A stretch of DNA of 53,276 bases from a virus: positions 1-53,276 of the IMG/VR virus record IMGVR_UViG_3300034152_000987. One strand, written 5' to 3'. Within the stretch, counting starts at the first letter, position 1. The number at the start of each line of letters is the position of its first letter. The notes beneath the pieces were generated by a model. That model did not search any database, was not told the origin of the DNA, and saw only the letters and a list, made by a program, of their open reading frames with translations. The position numbers and the translations under genes were made by a program. Shown in pieces: positions 3,582 to 20,696 of this stretch.

Positions 3582-6155
3582 TTACCAAGAAGTGGCCACC
3601 GCGTGCCTTACCCACGTGTTGGTGTCTACGCACTCATACAAATACCCAGAGCCAAAATACTTCTGACCTTGAACTCCAGAAGAAGTCGGAGTTGGTTCAT
3701 AGTCAACGTATAAACCACTCATTGAGCCAGATATGGTTAAATTTCCTTCATCGTCTATGGAAGCGACTTCATTGTTGTAATAATCACAGAAAGATATTTT
3801 TCTGTGACCGTCATCAAGACCCATTCTCAGAATTGGGTGCTCCGCTTCAGCGGAAAATATGCTTTCCCTTCCTCTTGAACTTATGAACACCCTTCCGGTG
3901 GTACCAGATCCTAATTTTGTAAACATCCCAATGCGCTGAACGCTCCCAAAAGTGGGCTCCACCGTGGTCAAAGTGCCACTGCTGGTCACATAAACTCTGC
4001 TTCCCAAAGGAGATCCAGAAAACGAAGAAGTGTCCATAAACAATCTTCCAAAGCGCACCACGTATCCGTCGTCGCCGTTTGCTATGTTAGCTCTCACCAA
4101 GCCAATGCACGGCATCTTGTCACAATCCGTGTTGTCGCAAGCGGCCACTGATGGAACGGTTCCAACAAGACCGTTGACGTAAACAGGAGTCCCTCTCTCA
4201 AGAGTGGATCCAGTGTCGTTGCTGACCAACACAGCGTTGTACTTCGTGAACATTCCGTTTACGTCTTCAACGTTGTTGTCATTTAAATCCAAATCCCCAT
4301 TCACTGACAGCGCCCCGCCAAAATATGAATCTCCCGCGTTCACGTAAAAAGCCCAAGGATTGGTGATCGACATGTTGGCTCCAGCGGTTGGTGATCCATC
4401 AATGTAAACCGTGCAAGCGTCAGTTATTGTAATGGAATTGTCACCAATCATGGTGGGAATCCCGAACGAAGTGGCAGATCCTTTGTCTCTAAGACCGGGA
4501 GTGAAGTTGTCAGTTAAATTGGCCGCAGAAACGCGCAGTTGCAAACCTTCTTTTGTAATTGGAGAGTCATCCACGTTGCCCGCTATATTGACGTATTCCG
4601 CCGGCCTTGCTCCAGTTGTTATGAAGTACTGAGTGTGATCGTCAGCGTCAAGACCGGTGAGATCTGCGTGTGCCGAAGCTCCTGCAGCTCCGCTGACAGT
4701 TGTGTCAACGTAAGTCTTGACAGCCTTTTCTGTTGGTATGGCGGAATCGGAATTGTCTGTAAAAGCTCCGTCAGTGGAAAACTCATCTACGGAGTTGCTG
4801 TCTATTGTCAAATTGTTGGTTATGACGACGCTGCCTTCAAAATTCACGTCGTTTTCAACGTCAACGTCTGAATATGACGTGTAAATTTGCTTGTTCCAAG
4901 AAGTTCCGGTTATTTTGGAAAAAGTGGGAGTGGTTGCCAAAAACGAAAGGACTTCTCCTGGAGCCGTCACGTCAGACCAATTGTCTCCATAATCCTCTGA
5001 CACGCTGACTTCACCAGTGGCCGCGCAAGCGATTTGAATTTTTCCGTCGTAAGACAACTTCAAATCGTTCCACTGACGACTTTCGCCTTTCGCTGACCAA
5101 TTCTCGCCATAATCAGTGGAAACGTATATGTTGCCTCCCCACACCGCCGCAGCTTGAATGGAACCGTCGTCTGACATGCCAACCGGTTTCCAGTTTCTGT
5201 CGGAGTCTTTTGCTGACCAAGATTGTCCTCCGTCGCTTGAAACGTACAATTTACCTCCGAAGGCGCCAGCGGTGACGTAATCCCCGGAAGCTGACATCCA
5301 AATTCCATACCAAGCCTCAGACGGACCTGTGTGGTTCCAAGTTTGCCCGAAGTCATTGGAAACGTAAATGTGCCCCAAACCATTGAAAACAGCCATTCTT
5401 CTACCGCTTGAAGACATTGCCATCCCGTAAGGAACCCCAAGGACTGGACCGTAACCAACGAAAGTCTCTCCATGATCCACGGACACTTGCGTTTGACCGC
5501 CCACCACAGTCCCAGCAATGACCCTGCCGTCAGCCGACATCGCCAAAGAGTACCACTGCAACGCCGCAACCGTGAGAGTCGACCAAGTCTTTCCAGAGTC
5601 GGTCGATTTGTACAACACGGAATTGCTAACGCAAGCCACTTGAGTGACTCCGTCAGACGTCATGGCCACCCCGTTCCAGAACCTGGAGCTGTCTCTGGCA
5701 GTCCAAGAATTTCCAAAATTGGATCTTAGGGTGTAGTCGTCCTGTCTGCAAGTCATCCTGTTCACAATGACTTGTCCCCTGGAACTGCTGGCTATGACGG
5801 AATCTCCGACGTGCGCGCTTCCGCCAGAAGTGAACAACTCATCACAATAAATGTCACCGGTTCCAGAAATGGTTCCGGCTCCGTAATCTATGTTGTCATT
5901 GGCGTTTTTTGGAGTTAGGGTCGTGCCGGTTCTGTCCCAATAAGAAGAAAGGTCTGAGTGTGAATACCCAGAATCTTTTGGAAGGCCGTTTGAATCAAAC
6001 GAAACAAAGTTGTCTTCTGTCGCCCCAGCAACCCCGTAATGATCGACGACCCCGTCTATGTGGTGTTTTCTTGGGTGATCGTTCACTCCAGACGACGTCG
6101 CGGCTCCGACCATGTCCAGTTTTCTGGTAAACGGATTATAATCAAACGAAGGCAT
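3582..6155 (-). CDS. Tail fibre with BNR/Asp-box propeller
   Basis: This 857-residue protein is probably a second fibre or spike. After an N-terminal WDRTGTTLTP linker, residues of about 140-410 contain at least six Asp-box repeats of the form SxDxGxxW (for example STDSGKTW, SNDFGQTW, SSDGGQSW, STDYGENW), typical of sialidase/BNR beta-propellers that bind or cut glycans. A fibre-type segment GLDADDHTQYF follows near residue 500. The C-terminal part has beta-rich repeats of the sort found in phage collar or fibre tips. It lies 31 bp upstream of the larger fibre and is co-directional. Catalytic activity cannot be judged from the repeats alone; carbohydrate binding is the safer inference. Confidence 0.75.
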   Translation of the reverse strand: MPSFDYNPFTRKLDMVGAATSSGVNDHPRKHHIDGVVDHYGVAGATEDNFVSFDSNGLPKDSGYSHSDLSSYWDRTGTTLTPKNANDNIDYGAGTISGTGDIYCDELFTSGGSAHVGDSVIASSSRGQVIVNRMTCRQDDYTLRSNFGNSWTARDSSRFWNGVAMTSDGVTQVACVSNSVLYKSTDSGKTWSTLTVAALQWYSLAMSADGRVIAGTVVGGQTQVSVDHGETFVGYGPVLGVPYGMAMSSSGRRMAVFNGLGHIYVSNDFGQTWNHTGPSEAWYGIWMSASGDYVTAGAFGGKLYVSSDGGQSWSAKDSDRNWKPVGMSDDGSIQAAAVWGGNIYVSTDYGENWSAKGESRQWNDLKLSYDGKIQIACAATGEVSVSEDYGDNWSDVTAPGEVLSFLATTPTFSKITGTSWNKQIYTSYSDVDVENDVNFEGSVVITNNLTIDSNSVDEFSTDGAFTDNSDSAIPTEKAVKTYVDTTVSGAAGASAHADLTGLDADDHTQYFITTGARPAEYVNIAGNVDDSPITKEGLQLRVSAANLTDNFTPGLRDKGSATSFGIPTMIGDNSITITDACTVYIDGSPTAGANMSITNPWAFYVNAGDSYFGGALSVNGDLDLNDNNVEDVNGMFTKYNAVLVSNDTGSTLERGTPVYVNGLVGTVPSVAACDNTDCDKMPCIGLVRANIANGDDGYVVRFGRLFMDTSSFSGSPLGSRVYVTSSGTLTTVEPTFGSVQRIGMFTKLGSGTTGRVFISSRGRESIFSAEAEHPILRMGLDDGHRKISFCDYYNNEVASIDDEGNLTISGSMSGLYVDYEPTPTSSGVQGQKYFGSGYLYECVDTNTWVRHAVATSW

Positions 6156-6974: not shown

Positions 6975-8363
6975 CTATATAAAGTTATATAAATAAGTTC
7001 TATGACCGGCGTCCCACACCCGATCATACCCTTGTCCGACCAGCGATTCAAACTCAATTTCATTCAATTCTCTCTCTTCTTTATTCTCATTCAAAAAAAA
7101 ATTCTTAATTCTTTTTCCGTTCTTAAAATAATGAGGAGCGCATTTGGTAAAACCAACAGGTTTAAAACCCAACAAATCACAATCAGTGGAGAAAAAGTTG
7201 TCGTATCTCATGTCACAATAAGATTTAACGCAACCGATCCCATGATTTTTGCAATGCTCTTTCGCCACCTCAAACAACTTTCTAGCCCCTCCAACCACGG
7301 TAAAATTTTTCTTTTCGCAAAATCTCTTCAACTCCAATTCATTGTTCAAATTGGAACGCTTTTTCACAGGGTTTGACAAACCCAAGGCGGCCACCAACTC
7401 ATCGTCGCTAAACAAACCCCAAACAACCACGAAATCAGATCCTCCTCTCACGTGATTTTCATTGAAAAAATCGTTGGCGGTCTTTGAATCAAGAGTTTTG
7501 ATGAAACAATTTCCAGCCAACGCCTCGTTGTCACTCAAACCCAAAGCGCGTTTTATTATAGAAACCACTATGTCAAATTTGTCACACGCTTCATCCTCAA
7601 AAACCGTGATCAAACGAACTCCCTTGTCCGCGCATTCTTTCATTTTGTCATAATGGTAAAATTTGTTTTTACCCGATGAAGCTTCCCCGTGCCAATACAA
7701 ACCGCACACTTCCACCGCCACCTTTAAATCATGAAAATAAACGTCCAATTCTTTTGGAGCTATGATTGAACGATCGTTGTAAATCACGTTCACGTTTCGC
7801 AAGTCCCTTTCTATGAAATCTCGCATTTTTCGTTCGGGCCGCGAAACGAAATCGTTGCCAAGGAAACATCTCAAACACCTGTTTCCGTTGTCTTTGAACC
7901 CATGATAAGTGACACAGTACTCATGACCTTTTGGGCACTCCAAGAGAACGCGACCGTTGTGGCAATTTTTAAACTCCTTGGCGGAAAGCGTTTTGTAACC
8001 AAACCTTTCAACGTGCTTTTTCATTTCCTTTATTTTATTGGCCCTGTTAAAAATTCTTTTCCTAGCCCTGTCCTTTTTCCTCGTTAAAGATCTTTTTCTT
8101 TCTGCGTTCTCAGAATTCAGCTTTCTTCTCTCTTTTTCACATTCTTCAGATCCGCAATGCGTTTTGTTTTTGTAATAAGTGCTGAACTCTCTCCCGCAAA
8201 CCAAACACTCTCTAACTCGTTTTCTAAAGTTGTTTCTTGCTCTGCTGCGATTCCTCTCGCGTTCCTTTGCAAGCAAATCCCCACAGGTTGAGCAGCGTTT
8301 TTGATTTCCAGACGTGGGGATGAAAACCAAGTTGCACCTCTCACACCTTTTCTTTTTAAGCAC
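6975..8363 (-). CDS. Free-standing Vsr-like (EDxHD-type) homing endonuclease with zinc-finger N-terminus
   Basis: This 462-residue protein begins at GTG and probably makes a targeted DNA break that spreads its own gene. The N-terminal 90 residues hold several CxxC pairs (CERCNL, CSTCGD, CLVCGR) set in Lys/Arg-rich sequence, fitting zinc fingers for DNA binding. Residues of about 195-260 carry the Vsr-like nuclease core: VAVEVCGLYWHGE, then KFYHYDKMKECADKGVRLI and VFEDE. The C-terminal part (HVRGGSDFVVVWG, CDMRYDN) resembles the accessory domain found on such phage endonucleases. It lies directly 3' of the major capsid gene, separated by a strong hairpin, so the intron-rich capsid gene is a plausible present or past target. 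Confidence 0.75.
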   Translation of the reverse strand: MLKKKRCERCNLVFIPTSGNQKRCSTCGDLLAKERERNRSRARNNFRKRVRECLVCGREFSTYYKNKTHCGSEECEKERRKLNSENAERKRSLTRKKDRARKRIFNRANKIKEMKKHVERFGYKTLSAKEFKNCHNGRVLLECPKGHEYCVTYHGFKDNGNRCLRCFLGNDFVSRPERKMRDFIERDLRNVNVIYNDRSIIAPKELDVYFHDLKVAVEVCGLYWHGEASSGKNKFYHYDKMKECADKGVRLITVFEDEACDKFDIVVSIIKRALGLSDNEALAGNCFIKTLDSKTANDFFNENHVRGGSDFVVVWGLFSDDELVAALGLSNPVKKRSNLNNELELKRFCEKKNFTVVGGARKLFEVAKEHCKNHGIGCVKSYCDMRYDNFFSTDCDLLGFKPVGFTKCAPHYFKNGKRIKNFFLNENKEERELNEIEFESLVGQGYDRVWDAGHRTYLYNFI

Positions 8364-8428: not shown

Positions 8429-11400
8429 TTATAAGCTTCTATCAATAACGCCCATCCCGAGCATTCTTGAGTCAAGGCACGCAAATCCTATTTCTGCCCA
8501 TCCAAAGAAGCCTTGTTTTTGTTGACGAAGCAATGCTGGATCATCAATAGCTTCATATTCTTTTCTGATGGGCATTACAAGAGAATCATTTACGCTCATG
8601 TCAAAACCAAGTATCTGAGTTTCCCCCAACGAACTGACTGTTCCGTCAGCGGACGTTACGTTAGGATTGTCAAGAGTGTAGTTGTTGTAAACTTCGCCTG
8701 CGTCGGCTATGAACTTGCCAAAAGCAGCGGTGCTGGCATTGATGTTGTACATGCCGGTTGCTCCCAAATGTTGCACCTCATGAAGCTGCACGTTCCAAAT
8801 GGAACCCATTCCAGAAGCCTGAAAAATCTCTCTCCTGGTCACAGGATCAATGTCCGTGTCAGTCCACTCTCTAATGTCTGCAGCGTCTTCAGGAGCTATG
8901 TAAAGATCTGTCAAAGTCCTGCCAATTCTCTTGAAACCTACCAACATCTTATTTATAAGTTCCTTAGAAAGGTAACCAGCACCAGTTGACGCCGGATCAA
9001 TCTCATAAATAGGAGCTGGACGTGAACCCAACAGTCCCTTTCCAGAAAAAGCAGACGTCGCGGCCGGCATGATGATCTTCCAACCGCATTCTTCCTCATA
9101 ATTGGCAATGTCCTTTGCAACTCTAGCAGCAGCTCTTTGAGCAATGTCAATCCTCGAATCTCTAGCGTACGTCACTTTCCAATCTGCAGAAGCGTTAATA
9201 GCGAAGGTAGGAACATAGCATTCTGTTACTTGTAATGACCTCGGCTTTACCCGTTAGGCGGGGAAGCTCTTCGGCATTCCCTCTCACAGTTTCCTGTGAG
9301 TTCAGACTATATCATCATCCCAATGCAGGGAGTCTGGCGTATAGTCGTTGAGGAGTCTTAAAAAAGTTTCCTGCTGATTACCCAATCTTTGTTATTTTTA
9401 CCATGTCAGTAAACAAAGCTCTAAGGGCTTTCCAGCATATAGCAAGATTAAGAGGCCTATTTATTTTAGCTAACCTCTTCTCCTATACCTTCGATAAAGT
9501 TCTGGGCCATATCATCCTGTTACTTGTAATGACCTCGGCTTTACCCGTTAGGCGGGGAAGCTCTTCGGCGTTCCCTCTCACTGTCTCCAGTGAGTTCAGA
9601 CTATATCATCGCCTTATCGGCGTTTGACGTATAGTCGTTGGGGCTTACTTTATTTTAATCTCTTAGGAATATCCATAGTTATAACGTCTTTACTGCCATT
9701 CAAACTTCGTAAAGAAATTGCTATTTCAATGTCCCTATCGGTTACCGGAGTTCCTCTATTGACAGTCATTCTGTTATTGACATACTCTAACAATAGTTTA
9801 GCCTGCTTTTTCTTTGCAACCTCATTAGCCGCTAAAACAGGAAGTGCTTTATGAAGCCTCTTCATTCCCCCCAACGAAATTTTGTATTCAAGCTTTCCGT
9901 TTTTACGGGGTTTAGGACTTATATAAGCGCCTACTTTAAACCACTCTTTAATGACTCTATCGCAGTTTAATATAAATCCTTCACTGTCATTGGTTATTTC
10001 TATTGATGGAAAAAGATATAACGTCTTATTTTTATGATGATGTTGTTTAGACAACACATAACTTCCATCACTGTCAATGGCTCCGATCAACCATCCTAAG
10101 TCAAATAAAGTCTTGCCACCTGATTGTCCCATATTAGTCATATTTTCACCTTAGTAGTAATGACCACTTAGCGGGAGTTCCCAGCGTTATAGTCAAATTT
10201 TCAATACTACGTCTCTGTAGTATGGGCCATATGTTTATAGCCAAGCCCAGGTAGTACCCAAACTGGACAGTCTGTTACTTTTATGACCTAAAACGTCTTT
10301 TCTTTAGGCGGGTTGCTGCGAAGCAACCTCTGCACGTTTCCATGCAGCTCGGACTATATCTTCATTCAGTAAGAATGTTTGGCGTGTAGTCTCTGAGGAG
10401 TCTTAAAAAAGTTTCCTGCTGATTACCCAATCTTTGTTATTTTTACCATGTCAGTAAACAAAGCTCTAAGGGCTTTCCAGCATATAGCCAAATTATGAAG
10501 CTCTTAAAGAACCTCAAAATCTTCACTCACGGGGTAGACCGTTCAACCCAATGTGTTTCCACATTGGCCGGACTCTATCATCACGTTAAGCGTCTTGCGT
10601 ATTAGTCTCTGGGGTATCTTCATAGTTAGGGTTGTGATTTAAAAATTTTACTTTTTCAACTATATTATATATGTCTTTTGTATTAAATCTATTTATTTTT
10701 TTATGTTCCAAATAATCAATCATCAATTCCAGCTGGTTTTGTTTTGCAATAATTTTATTATTAATAAAACTCAGTAGTTTATACAAAGAATCCTGATTTC
10801 TTACATAAATGTTATAATTAAATTTCTTTTTGTTCTTACCTAATCTTTTTTTAGCTTTAGATTTATTGGTCCTATAATTATAATTTATATTAAGACTTTC
10901 ATATAAAGCTATAACATTATTAAGCATGGTGTCTGATCCAGTAGTTATGTCTACAGTGGGTATAACGCGTTCACTCTTTGTAACTACAAAACATATAGAA
11001 CCATCACCATCGATCGTACCGGCTAGCCAAGAAGGCGTGAAATTTCTATACCCGGTATCATAATTATAATCAAGATTCAGCTCTACTATTTTATTGTATA
11101 ACTCTTTTTGATAAGCAGTGTATGGTGTATTATTTTGTTTCCAACCAAGCTCATTAACATACCTCAATCTATCCTCACAAAACTTCCTTATTACTTCTAA
11201 TTGAGGTCTCCTAGAAATACAATATCCAACAACCAGATCAACAAACTCTATACATTTAGATAGACGTTTTATAGTTAGTTCCTTCTTATCTTTTCCAACA
11301 CTGGCTTTTCTCGTGGATATATGATGATTTATATTATTGTTATCTAAATAAGTATGGCATGCCTCAATTAAATCAAACCTAGTGTTATTAAAAGAAACAG

Positions 11401-11793
11401 TTGGTCTAAGTTGTAATCTCCCCCTAGGATAAAACCTGTGTATATACACACCAAAATCACTGTCAACTAAACCAGCAATATAGTTATCATTAACTATGAA
11501 GTTACCTGCATGATTGTCCATAACATCCTCCCCATTTTCACGTTGTCAGTAAGGGACGGCTTTAGGAGTTTCCAGCATATAGCAAGATTTTAACAGGCCA
11601 TTTACCCCACCATAGCCTGCGCTCCCGGCGCCAAATTCTCCACCGCGAACAATTCCCTCATGATTGATTCCAGTTCAATTTTCTGCAGGATTGGAGTAGT
11701 GAGCGCAGCGGCAAAAGCTCTGTAAGCCGCCATGCCTTCAGGAGTGTGCTCAGCTGTTGCTCTGAACAGTTGTCTCATTTCACGTTCGTCCAT
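8429..11793 (-). CDS. Major capsid protein, five exons interrupted by four group I introns
   Basis: The spliced protein has 355 residues and matches the HK97-fold capsid type carrying segments such as RYARDSRIDIAQRAA-like, EWTDTDIDPVTRREIFQ and CLDSRMLGMGVIDRS. Exons in transcription order are 11793-11614 (180 nt), 10539-10511 (29), 10267-10239 (29), 9512-9473 (40) and 9218-8429 (790); they total 1068 nt in one frame. Joined, the exon boundaries read LAPGAQA+VYPVSEDFEV, then PVWVLPGLGY, then MAQNFIEGIGEEV, then YVPTFAINASADW, an uninterrupted capsid sequence. Splice points were set by 5' exon pairing to the internal guide sequence with a U.G at each 5' site and G as the last intron base. Scaffold and protease genes lie just upstream. 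Correct capsid synthesis therefore needs four RNA splicing events. Confidence 0.9.
9219..9472 (-). ncRNA. Group I intron D (capsid gene, 254 nt, no ORF)
   Basis: This is the last and smallest-core intron of the capsid gene. The 5' exon end AAGAGGT pairs with the guide GCCTCTT, giving a U.G at the splice site. The core has the group I pair GACTATA / TATAGTC (P7) and a downstream 7-bp hairpin capped by a GAAA tetraloop. The intron ends in CAGAATG. Its 5' half is identical over 95 bp to intron B, while its 3' half is nearly identical to intron C, so it looks like a recombinant of the two. Confidence 0.85.
9349..9443 (-). repeat. 95-bp perfect repeat, copy 1 (intron D)
   Basis: This stretch is identical base for base to 10394-10488 in intron B. 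It covers the P2-P6 part of the group I core up to the first strand of P7. Perfect identity points to recent duplication or gene conversion between introns of the same gene. Confidence 0.95.
9513..10238 (-). ncRNA. Group I intron C (capsid gene, 726 nt, with LAGLIDADG ORF)
   Basis: This intron separates exon 3 (ending ...CTTGGCT) from exon 4 and ends in CAGGATG. The core pair GACTATA / TATAGTC is present, followed by a 7-bp hairpin with a GAGA tetraloop. Compared with intron D the hairpin has a compensatory A-T to T-A change, which shows selection on RNA pairing. It hosts the endonuclease gene at 9650-10141. P1 pairing is the weakest of the four (about four good pairs to GGCC), so the 5' site rests mainly on reading frame and protein continuity. 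Confidence 0.8.
9650..10141 (-). CDS. LAGLIDADG homing endonuclease, single motif (in intron C)
   Basis: This 163-residue protein has one LAGLIDADG helix at residues 17-26 (WLIGAIDSDG), so it should act as a homodimer cutting an intron-less capsid gene to spread intron C. A basic C-terminal half (KPRKNGKLEYK, KRLHKAL, LEYVNNR) fits DNA contact. An AAGGTGAAAAT ribosome site precedes the ATG inside the intron. The stop lies close to the P7 region of the intron core, the usual packing of such genes in phage introns. Confidence 0.85.
   Translation of the reverse strand: MTNMGQSGGKTLFDLGWLIGAIDSDGSYVLSKQHHHKNKTLYLFPSIEITNDSEGFILNCDRVIKEWFKVGAYISPKPRKNGKLEYKISLGGMKRLHKALPVLAANEVAKKKQAKLLLEYVNNRMTVNRGTPVTDRDIEIAISLRSLNGSKDVITMDIPKRLK
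10268..10510 (-). ncRNA. Group I intron B (capsid gene, 243 nt, no ORF)
   Basis: This intron lies between two 29-nt exons. The 5' exon end TGAGGT pairs with the guide GCTTCA, with U.G at the splice point. The core has AGAGACTA / TATAGTCC and a 7-bp hairpin with a GAAA tetraloop, plus a GGTTGC / GCAACC hairpin. It ends in CAGACTG. Its 5' half is shared exactly with intron D, but its 3' half differs from C and D. Confidence 0.85.
10394..10488 (-). repeat. 95-bp perfect repeat, copy 2 (intron B)
   Basis: Identical to 9349-9443. See intron D for meaning: the shared part is the 5' half of the ribozyme core. Confidence 0.95.
10540..11613 (-). ncRNA. Group I intron A (capsid gene, 1074 nt, with LAGLIDADG ORF)
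   Basis: This is the first capsid intron. The exon 1 end CAGGCT pairs perfectly with the guide GGCCTG, with U.G at the 5' splice site. The core shows AGAGACTA / TAGAGTCC and a hairpin of 8 bp capped by GAAA just before the 3' end, which is G at 10540. The P2-P3 region resembles introns B and D (GCTATATGCTGGAAA), so the introns share ancestry. Most of its length is the endonuclease gene at 10586-11521, whose 3' end overlaps the core. Confidence 0.85.
10586..11521 (-). CDS. LAGLIDADG homing endonuclease, two motifs (in intron A)
   Basis: This 311-residue protein has two LAGLIDADG helices, at about residues 14-24 (YIAGLVDSDFG) and 165-174 (WLAGTIDGDG), so it should work as a monomer. The rest is rich in Asn, Lys and Tyr and is clearly more AT-biased than the capsid exons, a sign of separate origin. 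A GGGGAGGATGTT ribosome site precedes the ATG. Its role is to cut capsid alleles lacking intron A; it may also help folding of the intron as some relatives do, which cannot be told here. Confidence 0.85.
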   Translation of the reverse strand: MDNHAGNFIVNDNYIAGLVDSDFGVYIHRFYPRGRLQLRPTVSFNNTRFDLIEACHTYLDNNNINHHISTRKASVGKDKKELTIKRLSKCIEFVDLVVGYCISRRPQLEVIRKFCEDRLRYVNELGWKQNNTPYTAYQKELYNKIVELNLDYNYDTGYRNFTPSWLAGTIDGDGSICFVVTKSERVIPTVDITTGSDTMLNNVIALYESLNINYNYRTNKSKAKKRLGKNKKKFNYNIYVRNQDSLYKLLSFINNKIIAKQNQLELMIDYLEHKKINRFNTKDIYNIVEKVKFLNHNPNYEDTPETNTQDA

Positions 11794-17741: not shown

Positions 17742-20696
17742 TCATTTCTTTTTGGTCAAAACAGCTTCTGAACAAACCCTGGCGGCGTCGCCTCCTTTTG
17801 CAAATCCCGCGTCAACGCGCTCCCAGGAAGCTCCAGATCTATGCTCTTTCATCAATCCTCCAGAACTGTACATAGTCAATCCTTCCTCCACTTGAGAATC
17901 CTTTTCTATGGCCCTTATTCCATAACCAACCAATATCATTGCTGAATACAAGTCTTTGTTCTGTCCTTTTTTAGGAGTGTCGAAATGCAAAACACCGCTT
18001 GCTTTTTGAGTGACCACTATGTTCAACATCTGTGACTTTAAAACGTTTATGGCTTCAAAAACCCCCGCTTCCACGTCAGACGCAGAAGTTGGAGGCTCTG
18101 GAAACCGCAATTTTTTGTCCTCCAACAAAGACAAAGTGGCGTAGTTCGCGTCGGAAATCCACGATGGAGAAAAATTAACCATCTCCAAAATGTGACGACC
18201 TTCCATTTTTTTGTGATTGTCGTTAGTTATGTCTATGATGGGAACTTCGTCATTGTAACCTTCTTCAAGCAAATCGCAGACGGCTTTGCCTCCACCGCCT
18301 TTGTCCATGTATATTCTTGTTGCGTTGAACTGATCCGACAAACTTTGCACTGCTTTTGCAAGCTCTGGAGTGGTGTTTGTTTTTAGCTCTATTGCGCTAA
18401 CCACTTTATTGGTTTTTCCCAATTTTACAACCACGACTCCACAACTTGCAGATCCTCCCTGATTCGGATCAACCCCCATAATGTAATTCTCACCAGGCTC
18501 CGCTCCCAACTCCACGGAAAATTCGCTTCCGAAAGTGCAAGCCTCCAACAAGGAAGCTTTAAAAAATCCTTCTGAATCAGATATCATGGTGGCTTCGTAT
18601 TCCATTTGGAACCCAGCCTTGGACATGACCCTTTTTGCTTCCATGACGCTGTTCAAATCCAAAAACCCTTCTGGCAAAAACCAATATGGAATTTGATGCA
18701 CCGCGTACTGTGAATTTGAACCGTGTTTTTCCACTTGCTTCCAATAATCTTTCATTCTTTTCCACATGTGATTGAACTTGTAATAACCTGAAGAAGTCAT
18801 TATCATTTTATTCACAGTGCTTTCTTCGAAGTCCTCTTCTGTGGCCAATCCCATTTCTATTAATTTCTTTTGTCTTTGAAGACGTCTGACGTTTTTCATC
18901 GGTTCCAATATTGTGGCGGCCATGGGCCTGATGACCGTGTCCAAAACCGTTGGGTTGACTTGCGCCAACTCGTCAATGCATATTAAATAATAACGAGATC
19001 CTCTAATTTTGGAACCGTCGGCCAGTGGAAGTCCTTCTATGTAAGATCCTGAAAAATCTCCAGAAGATTTAAACGGAAGATAAACGGAGTCAGATCCCCT
19101 CGTTGGTTTTTTCGCAGTGGCCTCTTTCAGTATGGGAGATTTGTCCCATAATTTTTCAACTTCCATAAATATGTTTTTAGAATTATGGTTTATAAATCCA
19201 TTAGCCCAATAACATTCCTCATTTTCTACCTCCATATCCATGGTTGGAGCGAAAAAATAATTAGATTTTACCATTTTTACAAAATACAAACCCTGGTCCA
19301 AATAATCTTTACACTTAAAATAATTGCGCTCCACAATCTCCTGTGGAAGCCCTATAGAGCGAGCCAAACTCTCTTCTTTATCAAAATGACAACATAAATA
19401 ATTTTTCAAGTCAGCGTTTTTTCTCCTGCACCTAAACCCCACTACACCATTGAATTTTTTAATAAACGTTTGTCCGGTTATTCTAATCTTATAACTTTCC
19501 GCGCATTTAGACGGTTTGTTGCCCTGTGGTAATTGTTTAACGCGTTTTTTATTGCCAATCCCTAAATTAGACACAATGCCTAAATTCAATAATACAGATT
19601 GAACTTCCTTAGCTAACTGTAATGATGAGGCGTTGAATGTTATTTCACACGCTTTATTTTTTTGTACATAAACACAACCATCAGTATCAAACAAACCCTG
19701 TAAAAAAGCAATCACATTCTCCTTAGACGCCTTTTTAATAACGTCAGGGATTTTCTTATCCAACGCTATGGTTTTTGTAAACCCACACTTTAACAGGTAC
19801 ATACATAATTTTTTATTGCTAAACTGTAATTCTTTTGTATTATTTCTTCTCTGACACTCTTTTGTTTCTATGCCAAAATATTCTTTTGTATACCTATGAA
19901 AACTGTCTAATAAATCTCTATCTTCATTAACAAAATCTAATCTTGGTTTCTTATCCTTTTTTCTAAACGTAACACAACCATCACCAACCAACAAACCCAT
20001 CCAATAAGCTAAATCTTCAGTTAATAGTTTTGGAACTAAACAATCTTTAGTTCTCCAATCGTGCTCAAACTCATCAAAACTTGGCATGGAATCATTGTTG
20101 CCAAAATAATTAAATCCAGTTTTTATTGCTATGTAATCGTCTTTTACGTCTTGAAGGTCTTTATATACAATATCTGCGTCATCGTCAAGCACTATAATGG
20201 CGTGATCTACAGTGCCAGCCAATTCAAAACCTTTTGTTGTTTTTATTCTTCTACAAGCTCTGTCATCATTCTTCCATTTACTTAGTATTGTATTCTGAGA
20301 CTTAAAAGACTGCGTTTGCGTAATGTTGGGAACAACGCTTTCATACATGTCTTCTGCGCCAACAACCATCCCTGAGGTGGTCCAGAATGTATCATAATTA
20401 TTTGATATAATTAGGCTTTGTCTAAAGACAGGGCCAATTAAACCCACCCTATAACCAGGATACAGCAAACAGCTCAAACAAGCCAACACTCCCAGCATCC
20501 ACGTCTTTCCGCCGCCCCTGCCCATTACGGTGATCGTGTAATTCTTGAACCACATGTCCCTAAACACTATTTTCTGGACTGGAGCGAAATCAACCCCCAA
20601 CAACTCGCTGGCTGCTATGCAAGGGTGTTCTCTGTAAAACTGTATTAAATCAACCCCCCTGTCCAGTATTTTTTCAAGTTGATCGTCGTGCATCAA
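17742..20696 (-). CDS. terL: Terminase large subunit with LAGLIDADG intein
   Basis: The 984-residue precursor contains a 572-residue terminase and a 412-residue intein. The packaging ATPase has Walker A GRGGGKT at residues 59-65 and Walker B YYLICIDE ending at D575-E576. The RNase H-like nuclease has acidic residues at D743 (GVDPN), D798 (YMDKGG) and D915 (DLYSAM). The intein (residues 94-505) splits the ATPase domain after GPVFRQ, so protein splicing is needed before the motor can work. The gene overlaps the upstream putative small terminase by 4 bp, implying coupled translation. Confidence 0.9.
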   Translation of the reverse strand: MMHDDQLEKILDRGVDLIQFYREHPCIAASELLGVDFAPVQKIVFRDMWFKNYTITVMGRGGGKTWMLGVLACLSCLLYPGYRVGLIGPVFRQSLIISNNYDTFWTTSGMVVGAEDMYESVVPNITQTQSFKSQNTILSKWKNDDRACRRIKTTKGFELAGTVDHAIIVLDDDADIVYKDLQDVKDDYIAIKTGFNYFGNNDSMPSFDEFEHDWRTKDCLVPKLLTEDLAYWMGLLVGDGCVTFRKKDKKPRLDFVNEDRDLLDSFHRYTKEYFGIETKECQRRNNTKELQFSNKKLCMYLLKCGFTKTIALDKKIPDVIKKASKENVIAFLQGLFDTDGCVYVQKNKACEITFNASSLQLAKEVQSVLLNLGIVSNLGIGNKKRVKQLPQGNKPSKCAESYKIRITGQTFIKKFNGVVGFRCRRKNADLKNYLCCHFDKEESLARSIGLPQEIVERNYFKCKDYLDQGLYFVKMVKSNYFFAPTMDMEVENEECYWANGFINHNSKNIFMEVEKLWDKSPILKEATAKKPTRGSDSVYLPFKSSGDFSGSYIEGLPLADGSKIRGSRYYLICIDELAQVNPTVLDTVIRPMAATILEPMKNVRRLQRQKKLIEMGLATEEDFEESTVNKMIMTSSGYYKFNHMWKRMKDYWKQVEKHGSNSQYAVHQIPYWFLPEGFLDLNSVMEAKRVMSKAGFQMEYEATMISDSEGFFKASLLEACTFGSEFSVELGAEPGENYIMGVDPNQGGSASCGVVVVKLGKTNKVVSAIELKTNTTPELAKAVQSLSDQFNATRIYMDKGGGGKAVCDLLEEGYNDEVPIIDITNDNHKKMEGRHILEMVNFSPSWISDANYATLSLLEDKKLRFPEPPTSASDVEAGVFEAINVLKSQMLNIVVTQKASGVLHFDTPKKGQNKDLYSAMILVGYGIRAIEKDSQVEEGLTMYSSGGLMKEHRSGASWERVDAGFAKGGDAARVCSEAVLTKKK
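19182..20417 (-). mobile_element. Intein with two LAGLIDADG motifs inside terL
   Basis: The intein runs from Ser94 to Asn505 of the precursor. Its N-terminal splicing domain includes the TxxH motif GTVDH, and its C-terminus is ANGFINHN followed by Ser+1, the standard His-Asn ending. Endonuclease helices are at residues 231-240 (YWMGLLVGDG) and 331-340 (FLQGLFDTDG). It starts with Ser instead of the common Cys. The flanking exteins join as FRQ+SKNIF, restoring a normal terminase sequence. The DNA of the intein is more AT-rich than that of the exteins. Confidence 0.9.

Follow-up and report, generated by a model that had tools for sequence, protein, structure and literature searches.

What divides the major capsid gene of the phage in the virus record IMGVR_UViG_3300034152_000987 of IMG/VR, and how could a single capsid protein still be made from it? 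The window analyzed here is the whole of that record, 53,276 bases classed as linear and probably a fragment, and the gene runs on its minus strand from 11793 to 8429, exactly where an initial annotation made from the sequence alone had placed it. We consider it highly probable (roughly 0.93) that this gene carries four group I introns, that these occupy four of at least ten landing sites in the gene, and that they arose through homing and the exchange of core sequences between neighbors.

Exons, splice junctions and guides

Joining the five exons (Table 1) yields a single frame, as annotated, of 355 codons plus a stop, although the coding sequence amounts to 1.07 kb rather than the 1.3 kb first estimated. 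The identification as a major capsid gene held as well, with the joined protein matching phrog_2522 'major head protein' in PHROGs (E 7.6e-13) and showing 23.9% identity over 58% to gp27 of Bacillus phage G, the sole phage matched at 1e-5 among 50,697 phage records (two records, one naming a major head protein). The spliced protein had no Pfam match at 0.01, and a search for a second capsid copy in the 53-kb record, which is probably a fragment, returned only exon 5 matching itself. Since the plain list of open reading frames (ORFs) in the window contains the capsid protein only as a 248-amino acid fragment, genes split in this manner are easily missed.

Table 1. Positions of the capsid gene parts, intron ORFs and repeated intron segments in the window
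Feature	Positions	Strand	Description
Exon 1	11614..11793	-	180 nucleotides (nt); codons 1-60 of the major capsid protein
Intron 1	10540..11613	-	1074 nt; coding site 180; last base G; endonuclease ORF inside
Intron-1 ORF	10586..11521	-	311 amino acids; LAGLIDADG endonuclease; Hom_end 6.9e-10, LAGLIDADG_3 6.9e-6
Micro-exon 2	10511..10539	-	29 nt; VYPVSEDFE and two bases of V70
Intron 2	10268..10510	-	243 nt; coding site 209; no long ORF; Rfam Intron_gpI 88.7 bits
Micro-exon 3	10239..10267	-	29 nt; last base of V70, PVWVLPGLG, first base of Y80
Intron 3	9513..10238	-	726 nt; coding site 238; last base G; endonuclease ORF; site-238 lineage
Intron-3 ORF	9650..10141	-	163 amino acids; one LAGLIDADG-like motif, LIGAIDSDG (by pattern); phrog_5046 4.3e-7
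Micro-exon 4	9473..9512	-	40 nt; last two bases of Y80, MAQNFIEGIGEE, two bases of V93
Intron 4	9219..9472	-	254 nt; coding site 278; no long ORF; Rfam Intron_gpI 74.7 bits
Exon 5	8429..9218	-	790 nt including stop; last base of V93 to residue 355
Intron-4 part repeating intron 2	9332..9456	-	against 10377-10501: 94%, 95-nt identical run
Intron-4 end and 5 exon bases repeating intron-3 end	9214..9316	-	against 9508-9610: 94%, 53-nt identical run

The junctions were placed by comparison with relatives in which the gene is uninterrupted. A peptide-pattern search of IMG/VR returned 201 stretches, all 201 encoding capsid relatives, and the best 80 were kept; their capsid genes are uninterrupted and 79-87% identical. 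Across residues 55-100, which span all four junctions, every one of these 80 aligned without a gap, at 83-98% identity. A nucleotide profile made from the 80 genes was then used in a decoder that places introns and has no gaps. When exons were required to end in T and introns in G, the decoder put the insertions after coding nucleotides 180, 209, 238 and 278, while without this rule it chose 180, 209, 238 and 279, the fourth being off by one nucleotide. The annotated terminal G of each intron was thus present in all four introns with the rule imposed, and the exon-T/intron-G boundary appeared in three of the four without it. In 20 loci, of which two nearly duplicate others, the rule-free decoder set 32 of 37 introns at an exon-T/intron-G boundary, compared with about 1 in 16 expected by chance.

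The annotated pairing of exon ends with a guide sequence, with U.G at the 5' splice site, was found in all four introns, where helices of 9, 9, 7 and 8 pairs surround the U.G. Among 13,325 other T positions, at least 7 pairs occurred at 4.9%, at least 8 at 2.3% and at least 9 at 1.0%. Between relatives, guide and exon co-vary at site 238 (GGCT with GGCC, GGTT with GACC) and at site 195 (GGCT/GGCC versus CGCT/GGCG). Taken together, the gap-free relatives, the rule-free decoder and the independent covariance model described below uphold the four introns, their junctions and the three micro-exons, and we infer from these that the capsid pre-mRNA is spliced at the predicted junctions.

Group I structure of the insertions

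All four insertions matched the Rfam Intron_gpI model (RF00028) in the covariance-model search that the initial annotation had suggested as a check, and introns 2 and 4 exceeded its gathering score (Table 1). We also aligned the last 75-151 nt of 27 of the 30 introns of relatives at hand (L234_195, L208_191 and L254_234 were left out; L numbers are our handles for loci), none of them from the window, and named by hand on the aligned sequences four helices of the intron 3' half, P7, P8, P9 and P9.2. Across the 27 introns, 92.4% of the 555 cells formed by the 22 named pairs were paired, and 18 of the 22 pairs change on both sides. The covariation score was 0.429, as against 0.141 after shuffling, a control that the relatedness of the sequences inflates, and at most 0.092 when the structure was slid. 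None of 500 shuffles reached any of five structure measures; slid structures were 29-41% paired, a comparison in which the named structure is favored, since one of the aligned introns served for naming it. Two compensatory changes set apart the site-409 lineage, whose P7 is GAACA/TGTTC in place of GACTA/TAGTC. In the window, the annotated P7 of GACTA/TAGTC is present in introns 2 to 4, whereas intron 1 has only GACT/AGTC, and the GNRA-capped hairpins at the 3' ends are seen as P9 loops of GAAA or GAGA.

The covariance model built from this window-free alignment recovered the four window introns at E values of 1.4e-21, 1.2e-20, 5.2e-20 and 2.3e-7, and the next match in the rest of the 53-kb window had an E value of only 1.7. 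Three of the four matches stop exactly at the predicted 3' splice sites, while the weakest, that of intron 1, overruns the intron end into exon 2 and intron 2. On 21 of the 80 uninterrupted capsid loci (261 kb), the model gave no match at E <= 0.1. It also found introns in loci outside the alignment, namely L361, L386, L366, L371, L385 (E 2.6e-5) and L236, with three matches in L386, the last at E 0.009. Intron 2 folded alone gave a z score of -3.4, which we did not count as evidence. These results support the assignment of the four insertions to group I, and the introns themselves are ordinary group I introns.

Landing sites and intron lineages among relatives

A second sample was drawn with little regard to introns by ranking 169 loci on their closeness to the last 150 residues and keeping the best 80, some of which are copies of one another and one of which, L211, is a near copy of the window. 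The decoder found introns in 17 of these loci, and in 59 the gene is uninterrupted; L236 starts inside an intron, and L247 and L253 (contig end) and L252 (deletion in exon 1) were not judgeable. Pooling all loci, some of which had been fetched via intron queries, gave 116 distinct genes including that of the window: 25 with introns (L236 counted among them), 87 uninterrupted and four undecided (L247, L253, L324 and L287).

By our own tally, 44 introns are present in the 25 genes, distributed over ten sites: 171 (4 introns), 180 (5), 195 (5), 209 (6), 238 (8), 264 (1), 278 (4), 409 (6), 612 (2) and about 639 (3). Position 191 (L208/L210) was read as 195 and 234 (L254/L292) as 238 by judgement, and judgement also placed 623, 627, 628 and 639 (L361, L385 and L386) at a common site of about 639. 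In L361, the second intron was counted on the strength of a gap some 950 nt long that holds an endonuclease-like ORF; the model gave no match there at E 0.1. Nine of the at least ten sites hold an intron in more than one distinct gene, and 11 of the 25 genes carry two or more introns; the window has the most, four, and L386, whose gene is cut at its 5' end, has at least three. The exons left between introns are short in relatives also, measuring 15 nt in L234 (the shortest), 24 in L191, 26 in L248, 29 in L254 and about 27 in L386.

Seven of the ten sites lie within 107 nt, and for nine uniformly placed sites the chance of such clustering is 0.00015. The insertion hot spot first suggested for one gene extends far beyond it. 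With site 639 outside the test, the neighborhoods of nine sites had a conservation of 0.857 compared with 0.814 for random positions (standard deviation 0.014), a value reached in 2 of 5000 draws, and the most conserved 20-residue bins, 201-220 (0.98) and 61-80 (0.97), both contain sites. The sequences support the view that the capsid gene is a crowded landing site for mobile introns. Mutual exclusion of sites was considered and set aside: no gene has introns less than 15 nt apart, and three site pairs are 9-14 nt apart, but this is not evidence for exclusion because 11.9% of 4000 label shuffles, run on a gene and site list typed by hand, also show none.

ORFs at site 238, present in six genes, are 70-87% identical to one another, whereas the best match shown from another site is 24-30%; the five ORFs at site 409 are 62-90% identical to one another. 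LAGLIDADG-type Pfam families were matched by seven of the eight intron ORFs scanned, the exception being the intron-3 ORF of the window. On a tree of capsid C-terminal DNA (78 rows, 75 counted, 20 with introns, six rows having been added as already known themselves or by their introns), the presence of any intron required at least 15 changes, and gains or losses of introns are therefore frequent. Homing is the usual explanation for such patchy presence. Because the presence is patchy at fixed sites, the products of the intron-1 and intron-3 ORFs would be expected to cleave intron-free alleles close to where the intron inserts. According to a review (PMC3984707), endonucleases of families other than LAGLIDADG are the most frequent in phage introns.

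Some further loci were noted during this survey. Decoder introns in L052, L296 and L363 were removed from the tally, as they were indels or a deletion and had no covariance-model match. L363 (5998-6941) encodes a capsid relative that lacks about 41 residues (135-175) and has no insertion. In L252 (contig 3300029267_000288, 6430-6640), about 40 residues of exon 1 are missing, and the gap, which holds no intron, ends at or next to site 171. In L081, a span of about 720 nt contains three 3' ends of introns of this type (4548-4681, 4810-4944 and 5132-5266; also in L087 and L157), situated upstream of a 440-amino acid ORF and with no match there to the window capsid protein; another virus thus probably has a second gene in which introns are closely packed. 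Metagenome bins were tried as a guide to the host, and three capsid relatives fell in unrelated bacteria (Geobacteraceae, WOR-3 and Fermentibacteria), so nothing reliable on the host follows from them.

A mosaic intron and the origin of the insertions

The 5' half of intron 4 resembles intron 2, and its 3' half resembles intron 3 (Table 1), while introns 2 and 3 have no common identical run longer than 9 nt. When the first 112 nt of intron 2 or 4 were compared with the 30 introns of relatives, none exceeded 78%. Each window intron retains a guide that matches its own exon; those of introns 2 and 4 differ in both sequence and place. The preceding exon sequence is GAGGU for introns 2 and 4 and GGCU for introns 1 and 3. 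Long identical runs between introns 2 and 4 and between 3 and 4, combined with retained guides, are the pattern expected from core exchange between neighbors, and the mosaic suggests that adjacent introns of one gene exchange catalytic halves. The introns of orf142 in Staphylococcus phage Twort are reportedly much alike.

Several observations weigh against the reading of four homing group I introns with exchanged cores, besides the advantage that the named structure had over its slid versions. Intron 3 (34.3 bits, E 2.9e-6) and intron 1 (24.8 bits, E 0.002) fell below the RF00028 gathering score, and Rfam accepted only one intron in 13 relative loci (114 kb), which is why the new alignment was made from introns of relatives. 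The two window introns below the score are those with ORFs, and most introns in the 13 loci carry ORFs too. The site-238 intron of L254 (contig 3300009702_000031, 5897-6623) ends in A rather than G, given a homologous 3' splice site, and site 171 is less conserved than the gene mean (0.772 versus 0.813). Nor are the lineages strict: the ORFs of sites 171, 180 and 209 are akin and do not separate fully by site, with L208_171 and L270_209 being 64% and 54% identical to the site-180 ORF of the window, from which it follows that some introns changed site, and the tree of intron 3' ends mixes sites. Lastly, the intron-3 ORF had no Pfam match at 0.01, and its phrog_5046 is labeled as an HNH endonuclease.

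Explanations that dispense with functional introns fared worse. If the insertions were assembly artefacts, from a chimeric contig or the collapse or expansion of repeats, the long identical stretches between introns would be the kind of repeat that assemblers can rearrange, and a second contig (3300035633_000426) does begin with 60-70 rearranged bases. That same contig is nevertheless 99.93% identical to the window over 8977 nt, a stretch with introns 3 and 4 complete and intron 2 in part, although it may not be independent of the window. In contigs from other datasets, intron positions agree to the base although the intron sequences differ, and the boundaries obey splice rules. We regard an artefact as very improbable. 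Scarcely better placed is a decayed pseudogene whose introns no longer splice. The end branch of the window is the longest in its neighborhood (0.54), and S65 and V70 occur in only 1 and 7 of the 80 relatives (best 80 of 201), as decay might produce, but the 355-codon frame is open after joining, guides and catalytic 3' halves are in place, and the record, although probably a fragment, holds no second capsid gene. Synonymous changes are also in strong excess in the micro-exons, codons 61-94 differing from four relatives by synonymous change at 15-22 codons and by non-synonymous change at 2-4 (synonymous divergence being saturated). Least probable of all is that the insertions are never removed from the message, with inteins, translational bypassing or separate polypeptides restoring the protein; an apparent intein in the terminase gene of the same genome lends this some color, whereas two insertions lack a long ORF, exons of 9-13 codons are unlikely to make separate proteins, and the group I structure is backed by covariation.

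A more serious competitor concerns only how the extra introns arose. Instead of separate homing and core exchange, an intron copy could have reverse-spliced into a similar neighboring target within the gene. The targets are indeed alike (GGCU for introns 1 and 3, GAGGU for 2 and 4), and introns 2 and 4 have 95 identical nt in common. This transposition is nonetheless unlikely, given that other viruses carry introns of the same lineages as introns 1 and 3 at the corresponding sites, that the guides of introns 2 and 4 are unlike, that the likeness of 2 and 4 ends mid-intron where 4 turns into 3, and that introns at 209 and 278 occur separately in relatives.

We therefore return to homing with core exchange, for which the boundaries, the covarying structure, the guides, the partly site-specific lineages, the patchiness and the mosaic can all be read from sequence. 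On this model, each intron would fold on its own guide and be cut at the U.G of the 5' splice site, and joining of the exons would yield one 355-residue capsid protein. The ORF-bearing introns would have arrived by homing, with the endonuclease cutting conserved capsid sequence in the intron-free genes of co-infecting relatives, while introns 2 and 4 may be ORF-less derivatives retained since they are splicing-competent. Recombination or gene conversion between neighbors may then have given intron 4 a core of the intron-2 type and a 3' half of the intron-3 type, leaving each intron with a guide that fits its own exon. The common halves should permit the 5' splice site of intron 2 to be used now and then with the 3' splice site of intron 4, dropping exons 3 and 4; since sites 209 and 278 lie 69 nt apart, such skipping would remove 23 codons in frame. 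A bolder version, which we think doubtful, is an interlocking landing pad, in which endonuclease introns compete for overlapping conserved targets, insertions destroy the targets of neighbors and shield the gene from rivals, neighbors trade ribozyme halves, and routine skipping yields a second capsid protein 23 residues shorter.

The rarity claimed in the initial annotation proved weaker than thought. As far as the consulted parts of the sources go, a crAss-like phage of the Zeta group (cMAG OLRF01000054) already has a capsid gene in five fragments, like the window, with group I domains in three of the four gaps and a lineage dense in introns and inteins (PMC7886860), although that is a different phage lineage, for which neither exon lengths nor a landing-site census nor a mosaic intron are given. 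The orf142 gene of Twort is similarly a phage structural gene (tail tube) with several introns, in which exon skipping was observed (Landthaler and Shub 1999, cited in PMC11878797), but it has three introns rather than four and is not a capsid gene. In Bastillevirinae, up to three group I introns occur per gene, and more than 47.2% of transcripts of the SIOphi polymerase skip an exon; these introns sit in polymerase, terminase and nucleotide-metabolism genes, and the word 'capsid' is absent from the main text (PMC11878797). The major capsid gene of the Cluster J mycobacteriophage LittleE has an intron, probably group I, whose splicing was seen by reverse transcription PCR and N-terminal sequencing, but it is a single one, with an HNH endonuclease gene on the opposite strand (PMC3706429). 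Placozoan cox1 likewise has a tiny exon, of one base pair, in a multi-intron gene, albeit in animal mitochondria with trans-splicing introns (PMC5436844), and phages averaging 18.5 group I introns per genome are in print (PMC12363816). Within the open-access literature, in the portions covered, we found no phage capsid hot spot or phage micro-exons for this clade, and no phage gene with ten polymorphic sites, 15-40-nt exons between group I introns and a neighbor-mosaic intron. Ten polymorphic landing sites in one essential gene make a natural experiment on site choice by homing endonucleases, and the same system bears on the exclusion of neighboring introns and on the minimum exon between two ribozymes (15 nt in a relative).

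Two other genes of the window are worth recording. Directly downstream of the capsid gene is a free-standing homing-endonuclease-like ORF of 462 amino acids (6975-8363, minus strand; phrog_559, 1.9e-57). The terminase large subunit ORF (984 amino acids, 17742-20696, minus strand) probably contains an intein, as it matches Intein_splicing at 35.4 bits (narrowly under the cut-off of 35.8) together with LAGLIDADG_3.

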